Below, piece by piece: positions 33,808-36,423 of a stretch of DNA of 64,000 nucleotides. Below the pieces are notes generated by a model that made no database searches, was not told the origin of the DNA, and worked only from the letters and a program-made list of their open reading frames with translations. The DNA comes from Devosia rhizoryzae. GTDB lineage: Bacteria > Pseudomonadota > Alphaproteobacteria > Rhizobiales > Devosiaceae. Each line of letters begins with the position of its first letter. Position 1 is the first letter of the stretch. Location of the stretch: contig NZ_CP068046.1 of assembly GCF_016698665.1 (NCBI RefSeq), positions 2,108,001-2,172,000 of the forward strand, written 5' to 3'. The position numbers were made by a program, and so were the translations under genes.

Positions 33808-34026
33808 GCAGTGATTTTGCGTCCTGTGGACAGCCCAGCCACGCAAGGCAGTTGCGTGACCAAACGTTAGGGAAAGCAGCTTAACCATGGGGAGCGATGC
33901 TCGCACCGCCGGTCCAGGCCGCTCTGGATTCGAGGGCACGCGCACTATATTGAAGAACACTTAAGGAACCTTGGGCGTTTGTGCCGTTATGGAACAAACA
34001 CCGCGTCGACCCTTCAAAGGCTGTCT
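33808..34026. other. Intergenic stretch between tRNA-His and PAS gene
   Basis: About 220 bases, presumably holding the promoter of the PAS protein gene. I see no repeat or RNA signature in it. Confidence 0.4.
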
Positions 34027-36423
34027 ATGAATGAGCGCTGGAGCACATTGCCGGATGCACGCCGCGTTCTGCCTTTGGCGGAAGACGCGCGCCCGGCTTG
34101 GCTTTGGTCGCAGGACGGGCAGAGGCTGATCTGGTCCAACCGGGCCGCAGAGCTGTTTGCTGCCAAGATCAAGAAGGGCGCGCTCAAGCTGGCGCCAGCG
34201 GCGGTGCCGATCAAGGGACAGATCAACCGGATCATGCGGCTCGGCACGACGGGCCGCAGCAGCCTGGCACGTATCCAGTTCCTGACCGGCGAGCGGCCGG
34301 TTTCCGCCACGTGTTCGACAACGCCGTTGGTTTGGGAAGAAAGCGAGCCGGTCCTCCTGATCACGGCAGTCGATCCGATCGCCGACGACATTTTGGCTTT
34401 GGCGCGCGGGGAAGCCGAGCCAGAGCTGGTGCAGCCCATCGAAGAGCCGGTACGCGACGAGCCCGCACCCGACGCGGCCTATGAGCATGAGCTTGAAAGC
34501 TGGCGCGACGCCGATGCCGAGACCGTCTATGAGCCGGCGCCGGCAATGGAGCCCGACCCTGAGGCAGATGCGCCGGAGCAGTGGAGCGCGGCGCTGGCCG
34601 AAGATGAGCCCGTTGCTCCCGTTATCGAGCCCGTAGAGCCAGTCGTCGCCGCTGTCGAAGACAGTCAGGGCTCCAACCGGCTCAGCAGCCTGATCGATCG
34701 CCTGGCGGCAGACGACGCGCTGTTTTCGCCTTTGACCGAGGCGGATGACGTGGCACCTGCCCTGGCGACCGAAGTTCCGGAGCCGGCGCCGCTGCTGTTC
34801 AAGGTCACGGGGCGAGGCTTTACGCCAAACGTCGTCGAATCAGCCGAGCCCGTCGTGGAAGAGGCCGCAGTGCCCCCGCCACCCGATGCCGAAACTGTGG
34901 AGCGGGTGTCGCGCTACAATTTCGACGAGCTTTCCCGCATTTTGTCCGATCGCGTCGGCAACCAGCCGCCGGCCACGACCAAGACGGAGACATCGACACC
35001 GGGCGCGCTGATCAATCTGGGCGGCGAAACGCTGGTGCTGAACCGGCTGCCGCTCGGCATCCTGGTGTTTCGAGACCAACAAATCCTTTTTGCAAACCGC
35101 GCCATCACCGAAATGGTGGGCTACGAGTCCGTCGAAAGCCTGCGCAAAGCGGGGCTTGCGGCCATGTTCCCCTCGGCAGGGGGCGATGACCAGAGTGCGG
35201 GACCGGTCAATCACCTGGTGCAGCGCGACGGTACGCTGGTGCCCGTGACGGCGCGGTTGCAGTCGATCTCCTGGCAGGGCCGCCCTGCCCTGATGTTGTC
35301 GGCGAGCACGACTGAAGTGCGCACCGGCCACGAAGATGCGGTCAAGGCCTTCGCACAAAGCTTTGCCGATATCCGCGGCGATGGTTTTATCGACGCCAAT
35401 CGCGCCGGCGTCGTCAACTTCGGCAGTGAGCAGGCAGCGAACCTGCTGGCGGGCGGCAAGGTCTTGGCCGGAAGGCCGATTGCCGATCTTGTTGGCAGTG
35501 CCGATGTCGTCGCACTGCGCGCTTTTCTCGAGCGCCCGGCACGCTTTGCCGAAACGGCGCGGCCATGCCTCACCTTGCGCTCCGCCGATGGTCGCAGCGA
35601 GATTCTGCTCTTTGCGCTTGGTCAGGCTGGGGTCCTGTCCGGCTATTTCGGGCTGGTGCGCGGCCGCGAAGCGGCTCCCGCGCGGATCAGTGCCGCAAGC
35701 GACGTCGATCCGGCGCTGCTCGGACGCATCAGCCGCGGCGTGCGGCGGCCGCTCAACACCATTGTCGGCTTCTCCGACCTCATCCGCTCCAAGGCCTTCG
35801 GCGCTCTCAACAACGAGCGCTATGAAGGCTATGCCGACGACATCGCCCGCGCGGCGCAGGAGATTGCAGCGCTTGTCGACGAACTCGACGACTATGCGCG
35901 GCTGCGCGACGGACGCTATCTGCCGCAGCGGGCAAGCCTCGATCTCACCGCGCTTCTCGAAAGCTGCGTGCTGCGCATTCGCGACCAGGCCAATGCGAAC
36001 CGCGTCATCGTCCGCAATGCGATTTCGGAAACCCTGCCCAGGATCACCGCCGATCGCGCGTCGCTGGCACAAGCGGTGCTGAACCTTCTTGCCAGCGCCA
36101 TCGACCAGACGCCGGTCGGCGGCGCCGTGGTCATCTCGGCACAGCGGCACGACGATGGCGCCATCGTCATCCAGGTGCGCGACAGCTCGGCCGGCGCGGT
36201 CGACATGTCCGAGCGCTTCGTGGTCTTCCGCGACGGTGTCGGGCGGGACGGGCAGGCGCTGGCGCCGGTGCGGTCAAGCGTTGGCCTTGCGTTGACGCGC
36301 TCGCTCCTGGCGGTCAATACGGTGTCCTTGTCGGTCGATCCGGCGGGTGCGGAAGGGCTGTTGTTCAGCCTCAAGATCCCGGCCGACCTCGTCGACGAAC
36401 GCTCGGCCGTTCGCGACAACTAA
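34027..36423 (+). CDS. PAS protein with degenerate histidine kinase domains
   Basis: 798 residues. Residues 1-300 are acidic and proline-rich with an N-terminal module (RPAWLWSQDGQRLIWSNRAAELFAA). A PAS domain at about 345-460 has LGILVFRDQQILFANRAITEMVGYE and a second PAS-like region follows. The HisKA-like helix reads ISRGVRRPLNTIVGFSDLI, so the phosphoacceptor His of the S-H-E-x-R-x-P-L-N box is Arg570. In the HATPase region the N-box reads NLLASAIDQTP with Ser690 at the catalytic Asn, and the G-boxes are also degraded (DSSAGAVD, SVGLALTRSLL). It is therefore unlikely to phosphorylate itself. The start at 34027 has AAGG upstream. No response regulator lies next to it. Confidence 0.8.
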   Translation: MNERWSTLPDARRVLPLAEDARPAWLWSQDGQRLIWSNRAAELFAAKIKKGALKLAPAAVPIKGQINRIMRLGTTGRSSLARIQFLTGERPVSATCSTTPLVWEESEPVLLITAVDPIADDILALARGEAEPELVQPIEEPVRDEPAPDAAYEHELESWRDADAETVYEPAPAMEPDPEADAPEQWSAALAEDEPVAPVIEPVEPVVAAVEDSQGSNRLSSLIDRLAADDALFSPLTEADDVAPALATEVPEPAPLLFKVTGRGFTPNVVESAEPVVEEAAVPPPPDAETVERVSRYNFDELSRILSDRVGNQPPATTKTETSTPGALINLGGETLVLNRLPLGILVFRDQQILFANRAITEMVGYESVESLRKAGLAAMFPSAGGDDQSAGPVNHLVQRDGTLVPVTARLQSISWQGRPALMLSASTTEVRTGHEDAVKAFAQSFADIRGDGFIDANRAGVVNFGSEQAANLLAGGKVLAGRPIADLVGSADVVALRAFLERPARFAETARPCLTLRSADGRSEILLFALGQAGVLSGYFGLVRGREAAPARISAASDVDPALLGRISRGVRRPLNTIVGFSDLIRSKAFGALNNERYEGYADDIARAAQEIAALVDELDDYARLRDGRYLPQRASLDLTALLESCVLRIRDQANANRVIVRNAISETLPRITADRASLAQAVLNLLASAIDQTPVGGAVVISAQRHDDGAIVIQVRDSSAGAVDMSERFVVFRDGVGRDGQALAPVRSSVGLALTRSLLAVNTVSLSVDPAGAEGLLFSLKIPADLVDERSAVRDN

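Follow-up and report, generated by a model that had tools for sequence, protein, structure and literature searches.

What can a protein built like a histidine kinase do when the residues of its H-box and N-box have changed? The question is raised by a gene of Devosia rhizoryzae that lies in a window of 64 kb, i.e. the whole stretch of 64,000 nucleotides that was analysed, and that was described in a first-pass annotation as coding for a pseudokinase which would serve as the scaffold of another kinase or else inhibit a phosphorelay. Only a small number of pseudo-histidine kinases, DivL among them, appear to have been studied in depth. The literature searched, which left most subscription papers outside, contained no paper pairing Devosia with PdhS, DivK or pseudokinase and none joining three of the terms CbrA, PdhS, pseudokinase, 'catalytically inactive' and Hyphomicrobiales.

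Domain layout and catalytic residues of the 798-aa protein

The features of the locus are collected in Table 1. Pfam recognizes HisKA (residues 565-629) and HATPase_c (residues 676-786) in the 798-aa protein at scores marginally over the cut-off, and no receiver-domain family was found in it with the same models. The annotation had also described an acidic, proline-rich N terminus of 300 residues. This description holds for the linker at residues 119-327, which contains 23% of Asp plus Glu and 13% of Pro, is mostly of low AF2 confidence and is the fastest-evolving part of the protein, but not for residues 1-118, which form a folded PAS-type domain (AF2 pLDDT 92.8) whose eight Foldseek matches at E<=1e-3 are PAS/LOV structures or the PAS protein PpsR. 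In the AF2 model of the whole protein the confidence is low at residues 242-367 and in parts of PAS2, and the CA fold is predicted with a block pLDDT of 73-94. The third PAS-like domain is collinear in hhalign with the stretch of PdhS1 that lies N-terminal to HisKA.

Table 1. Features of the pseudokinase locus (positions in the 64-kb window).
Feature	Position	Strand	Basis or remark
TTAACCAT, published CtrA half-site sequence	33881..33888	+	146 bp 5' of start codon
Gene of the 798-aa protein, probable PdhS1-type pseudo-histidine kinase	34027..36423	+	ATG start
N-terminal PAS-type domain, residues 1-118	34027..34380	+	AF2 and Foldseek
Acidic proline-rich linker, residues 119-327	34381..35007	+	AF2, composition, dN/dS
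Second PAS domain (PAS2), residues 328-430, common to PdhS1	35008..35316	+	Pfam PAS_8 at 337-371; hhalign
Third PAS-like domain (PAS3), residues 436-547	35332..35667	+	AF2 secondary structure; hhalign
DHp (HisKA) helical hairpin, residues 560-630, H-box now RGVRR	35704..35916	+	
Arg570 codon, phosphoacceptor His position	35734..35736	+	
Arg574 codon, phosphatase Thr position	35746..35748	+	
CA (HATPase_c) fold, residues 635-790, damaged N, G1 and G2 boxes	35929..36396	+	
Ser690 codon, N-box Asn position	36094..36096	+	

The two substitutions on which the annotation was founded are both confirmed in the translation. The H-box reads ISRGVRRPLNT from residue 568, which places Arg570 at the position of the acceptor His, and the N-box reads LNLLASAIDQT from residue 685, with Ser690 at the position of the Asn. 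The comparison with 22 active PdhS1 sequences agrees with the changed G-boxes noted before, the G2 glycines 749 and 751 being lost and the G1 glycine 721 being replaced by Ser, and shows that Lys693 of the N-box is changed to Asp and Thr574 of the HExxT motif to Arg. The loss of this Thr, absent from the annotation, adds a predicted loss of phosphatase activity. Asp719, Gly723 and Gly753 are still present in the D. rhizoryzae protein, and 2 of the 12 catalytic positions (D719 and G753) are kept in the Devosiaceae rows. For PdhS2, the accessible part of PMC7003649 gives the His and the Thr as the predicted kinase and phosphatase residues and describes a complementation in which the Thr mutant failed, the His mutant succeeded and changing both residues together had minimal effect. 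Since both residues are changed in the Devosia protein (Arg570 and Arg574), the direct prediction is a K-P- protein, in which the kinase and the phosphatase activities would both be lost, and we consider it very probable that this protein is a pseudokinase.

Conservation in the Devosiaceae and its exceptions

Arg570 and Ser690 were found in 120 of 120 of the sequences listed (query included; 850 were found), so their occurrence is not a matter of chance. The family profile matches the gene in 128 of 136 Devosiaceae genomes and in 14 of 16 genera (E<=1e-60). Three of the eight genomes without a match contain N-terminal fragments (G300, G301 and G396), and the remaining five give kinase-core matches only, which resemble other kinases. 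The core could be read in 126 of the 128 genomes, G384 and G403 yielding none. Position 570 is occupied by Arg in 121 of these 126, by His in 3 and by Gln in 1 (1 unread); position 571 by Gly in 105, Glu in 13, Ser in 4 and Ala in 3 (1 unread); and position 574 by Arg in 120, Gly in 3 and Glu in 2 (1 unread), Thr being found there in 0 of 125 genomes. At position 690, Ser is present in 122 genomes and Asn in 4, and the N-box Lys at position 693 is replaced by Asp in 99, Lys or Arg never being found. This conservation across 14 genera, together with the low dN/dS described below, upholds the view of the annotation that the protein is a pseudokinase and not the product of a recent mutation. The orthologue alignment that it had proposed shows both residues to be nearly, but not strictly, fixed, and orthologues of the kind it had named as a refutation do occur in a few genomes: His is kept in 3 of the 126 genomes, Asn in 4 and both in 2.

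These exceptions count against a simple 'always dead' statement. His570 is kept in one g124 genome (HELRGP) and in two g133 genomes (HALREP), Asn690 in one g125 genome and three g133 genomes, and both residues in G416 and G418. Because Thr574 is absent in all of them, the members that keep His or Asn are not predicted to be ordinary kinases either. In G418, a g133 genome, a second and divergent pseudokinase copy (L277, G418:C69:4251-5957) has Arg and Ser at these positions; it could be a paralogue or come from a mixed assembly. In the case where the family would be an unconventional active enzyme, with another mode of ATP binding and another residue phosphorylated, one could cite the two genomes keeping His and Asn, the predicted CA fold with its pLDDT and the Asp719 and Gly753 that remain in nearly all rows; however, the N-box Asn and Lys, most of the G1/G2 glycines and the HExxT motif are lost in most members, and this explanation is very unlikely. 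On the core tree (see below), one change is needed for Thr574, three for His570 and three for Asn690. The Thr was likely lost before the His, according to these reconstructed changes, but the three His changes possibly represent one loss and two reversions, so this order is unproven.

The selection acting on each domain was estimated by the median pairwise dN/dS of 63 pairs of 29 sequences that are 70-97% identical, 59-63 pairs being usable. The medians were 0.096 for the N-terminal PAS-type domain, 0.311 for the linker, 0.063 for PAS2, 0.145 for PAS3, 0.050 for the DHp and 0.069 for the CA domain. With medians of 0.05-0.07, the dead core is strongly constrained by purifying selection.

The gene is preceded by what we take, from the likeness of the translations, to be hisS, LD-transpeptidase-like and TadG-like genes, and is followed by a presumed dipeptide-type ABC transporter; a tRNA-His is found near it in the window. 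The hisS, LD-transpeptidase and TadG-like neighbours adjoin the gene in 8 of the 9 readable loci of other genera. A decaying, functionless gene could be argued from the copy of D. aurantiaca H239 (L063), whose reading frame departs from that of the window copy, but the kept neighbours, the presence in 128 of 136 genomes and the dN/dS of the core make this hardly credible. Compared with the copy in the window, that of H239 (L063 8001-10425; L249) has gained an insertion of 33 bases and shows a gap of 2 bases, and it is split into frames of 525 and 459 aa, by a sequencing error or a real loss; its upstream region has no match to the hisS, LD-transpeptidase and TadG-like genes of the window copy. 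As stated in the annotation, the gene does not stand beside a response regulator: none of the 50 receiver-domain matches of the genome is located inside the window. Among the 26 HisKA matches of the genome, the sole one in the window is that of the 798-aa protein.

Relationship to PdhS1/CbrA and H-box erosion in the order

According to the accessible text of PMC3577659, PdhS1, CbrA and Brucella PdhS belong to a large class without transmembrane domains and PdhS2 to a small membrane class; CbrA is presented as a DivK kinase in the available portion of PMC11500502. The best NCBIfam match of the Devosia protein is PdhS, but it is partial and, with 154.5 bits for an equivalog cut-off of 2000, below that cut-off. 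When 12 Devosiaceae rows were compared by hhalign with ten active PdhS-type proteins from other families, 442 columns were aligned with 29% identity (E 1.3e-69, residues 333-790), and the order PAS2-PAS3-DHp-CA was collinear with active PdhS1. Block 538-638 of the PdhS model is matched beside the kinase block 797-966 at this gene only in the genome (E<=1e-5), and three short PdhS-type paralogues of the same genome outscore the 798-aa protein with this model.

The core tree was computed on 60 rows (28 Devosiaceae rows from the 126 genomes read, 22 active PdhS1 and 10 Devosiaceae paralogue rows), nine catalytic columns being dropped and L258 and L262 left out. The pseudokinase rows form one clade (100/100) with a long stem of 1.47, which joins the 22 active PdhS1 rows and is split from the 10 paralogue rows at 96/85, the support of the active PdhS1 group being only 85/75. 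In the AU test a grouping of this clade with the PdhS2-like rows was not rejected (p 0.078) and groupings with the PleC-like (0.0485) and DivL (0.0445) rows were only marginally rejected. Since a PdhS2-like grouping is permitted, the descent from PdhS1 rather than from a PdhS2-type kinase leans partly on the architecture. PdhS1 was found at E<=1e-130 in 275 of 397 genomes of the order and in none of family f1 (20 f1 genomes listed without it). The active-PdhS1 profile at E<=1e-60 gave matches in 135 of 136 Devosiaceae genomes which, among those listed, were open frames of 274-697 aa only, corresponding to PdhS2/PleC-like paralogues; no intact large PdhS1 was found among these listed matches of the Devosiaceae searches. 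Synteny with the PdhS1 of other families was found in 0 of 9 loci (L165-L166 read in part). Taken together, the profile, the domain order and, less firmly, the tree suggest with good probability that PdhS1/CbrA is represented in the Devosiaceae by this gene.

The PdhS1 cores outside the Devosiaceae were then a reference for the H-box. They came from 129 distinct genomes, i.e. sets of 22 and 120 with 13 shared, the set of 120 not being random (30 best matches, 30 mostly of low score or from unsampled families, and 60 from the listing). The His is kept in 125 of the 129 and the Thr in 124, and the N-box Asn and both G1 glycines in 120/120 of the larger set. Six loci are exceptions (Table 2), in all of which the N-box Asn and the G1 glycines are intact. 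Erosion of the H-box thus recurs in the order, with a CA domain less damaged than in the Devosiaceae. Most of the order has an H-box resembling HEIRTP; three Devosiaceae genomes have HELRGP or HALREP, and nearly all others of that family have an SRGVRRP-like box.

Table 2. PdhS1 loci outside the Devosiaceae with a changed H-box.
Locus	Genome	Family, genus	H-box	Residue lost	G2	Docking positions kept
L395	G468	f23	QEIRDP	His (Q)	changed	5/7
L403	G462	f42 g85	DQIRAP	His (D)	changed	2/7
L404	G437	f42 g85	QTLQAP	His (Q)		0/7
L453	G012	f12	LEVRTP	His (L)		7/7
L402		f42 g85	HQVRAP	Thr alone		2/7
L387		f35	HEVRMP	Thr alone	changed	7/7

Putative DivK-docking surface, CtrA half-site and proposed role

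For the docking of DivK~P by DivL, models or experiments point to R553, T557, G561, Y562, L565, H579 and A582 (PMC4211667), which map via the 4q20 alignment to R573, N577, G581, F582, L585, Y602 and D605 of the Devosia protein. Six of these seven positions are equal to the active PdhS1 residue in more than 90% of the Devosiaceae rows, and the seventh is a conservative change, mostly Leu for Val. The docking positions are better kept than the catalytic ones (6/7 versus 2/12, Fisher p 0.006). They are also better kept than the positions invariant in active PdhS1, of which 30 of 83 persist in 90% or more of the 135 Devosiaceae rows (these contain repeats of some genomes) versus 6 of 6 for the invariant docking positions (p 0.0016). 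The docking positions are lost in L402-L404, where the H-box has decayed, so keeping the docking face is not automatic. The sites derive from DivL and not from a PdhS1-DivK structure, and R573, N577, G581 and F582 are common among HisKA kinases, as seen in the other kinases of this genome; the docking residues therefore do not single out DivK. We infer that the pseudokinase may bind DivK.

If the partner were not DivK, a different response regulator could be docked, or the PAS domains could act on CckA or on polar proteins. PAS2 is indeed as constrained as the DHp (medians above), the genome offers its 50 receiver-domain matches, and the PAS domains of DivL are required for CckA binding according to the accessible part of PMC11500502. 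The PdhS likeness and the kept Y602 and D605 nevertheless speak for DivK, the gene shows no link to any other regulator, and such a partner seems rather improbable.

The sequence TTAACCAT, which occurs only once in the 64-kb window when both strands are counted, is termed a CtrA half-site in the accessible text of PMC3692519, and in that of PMC11527210 it serves as a CtrA motif. It was found upstream of the pseudokinase in 70 of the 70 loci checked, 66/66 anchored on the start codon and 4/4 further ones, although many loci are repeats of the same or near species, with fewer independent cases (11 genus codes covered). The loci without a start anchor were L063, L165 and L171-L173, four being then checked by the open frame; in L063 the corresponding place holds at least TTAACC. 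In an alignment of 13 upstream sequences TTAACCAT is the longest invariant stretch. It is not commoner in the 3.5-Mb genome than its reversed control (21 versus 25 copies), so its weight rests on the conserved place. The exact full CtrA site TTAA-N7-TTAA was found in 0 of 28 upstream stretches of Devosia loci, with one looser match (L048). In nine active PdhS1 loci, TTAACC is located 5' of the open frame in six, TTAACCAT being present in three of these, and just inside the frame in one more; a full-type site occurs in four of the nine (L176, L177 and L182 before the frame, L180 inside). Most of the 13 upstream regions also share a well conserved block, CTATATTGAAGAA (33945-33957 in the window), which lies 3' of TTAACCAT and ahead of the start codon and is perhaps the -10 region of the promoter.

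Other candidate members of the circuit are present in the genome: a 123-aa DivK-like receiver directly 5' of a PleD-like receiver-GGDEF gene, a ChpT-family match and a Tyr-type DivL-like protein (L005, G000:C1:2730041-2730736, strand -) with SYELRSP and Ser for Thr. The names DivK, PleD and DivL are our assumption, from likeness, for the proteins of this genome. Two His-less kinase-like proteins, the pseudokinase and L005, are thus found in one genome, and both may belong to the DivK-CtrA circuit.

The scaffold or phosphorelay inhibitor of the annotation can be kept in a narrower form, as the PdhS1 likeness, the docking surface and the half-site would place it in the DivK-CtrA circuit. We give an even chance to the hypothesis that this K-P- protein is still wired into that circuit, probably as a reader or sink of DivK~P comparable to DivL. 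DivL has neither kinase nor phosphatase activity, binds and protects DivK~P and, by genetics, tunes CckA (PMC4211667). It illustrates the functions open to a HisKA-CA protein of K-P- type, and for this reason a DivL-like reader or sink is favoured. In such a mechanism, a DivK kinase of the PdhS1/CbrA type would have been converted into a pseudokinase in the Devosiaceae, neither phosphorylating nor dephosphorylating. Its DHp surface would still dock DivK or DivK~P, and the docking would be read out via the PAS and CA domains, or DivK~P would merely be titrated. The pseudokinase, itself under CtrA control, would tune CckA/CtrA in the manner of DivL, and the phosphorylation of DivK would be set by the remaining PleC/DivJ/PdhS2-type kinases.

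In a different role, the DHp would pair with an active PleC/DivJ/PdhS2-type kinase or with CckA and switch it, as in RetS-GacS. The nearest solved sequences are indeed RetS kinase regions, one of them complexed with the DHp of GacS (7n0e), the DHp ranks with the most constrained domains, and the three short PdhS-type paralogues are available in the genome. The RetS match, however, is of merely 61.7 bits and generic for HisKA, and the positions kept are those that dock a response regulator. Such a modulator of heterodimers is unlikely.

Returning to the DivL-like reader of DivK~P, a more far-reaching and tentative proposal would be that the whole family made a DivK kinase into a DivK reader, the phosphatase Thr being lost before the last His and the docking face being kept. 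L395 and L453 suggest that such a conversion may be a recurrent route, of which DivL is maybe an older case. The different H-box states preserved among relatives allow the passage from a bifunctional kinase to a putative non-catalytic part of the DivK-CtrA circuit to be tested. Several of these proteins are entered in databases as 'sensor histidine kinase', a name that should not be taken at face value, and the CtrA-circuit models of Caulobacter or Sinorhizobium should likewise not be transferred to the Devosiaceae without question.

Among known systems, RetS of Pseudomonas, a kinase-like core acting on another kinase, GacS, is the best sequence match of the Devosia protein among solved structures. 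The aligned RetS chain differs in keeping HEIRTP, and no receiver-domain family was found in the Devosia protein. The pseudokinase version of ChrS (Corynebacterium) and RocA (Streptococcus) are described as further histidine-kinase-like pseudokinases or accessory proteins, from other lineages. PdhS1 of Agrobacterium, CbrA of Sinorhizobium and PdhS of Brucella, which are soluble DivK kinases of large size, share with the Devosia protein the order PAS2-PAS3-HisKA-CA and the PdhS-type C terminus, with the identity given above for Hyphomicrobiales PdhS-type proteins, and several of those have TTAACC near the start. In contrast to them, the Devosia protein is shorter, scores below the equivalog cut-off, lacks the acceptor His, the Thr and the N-box Asn and Lys, and has an N-terminal third that hhalign leaves unaligned. 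DivL of Caulobacter resembles it by the HisKA-CA fold, several PAS domains, the docking equivalents of R553, G561 and the aromatic Y562, and the absence of kinase and phosphatase activity, predicted for the Devosia protein. DivL has a Tyr acceptor and intact N, G1 and G2 boxes (PMC4211667), whereas the Devosiaceae family has Arg, damaged boxes and no Thr, and the Devosia genome holds, besides the pseudokinase, a separate Tyr-type DivL-like protein.
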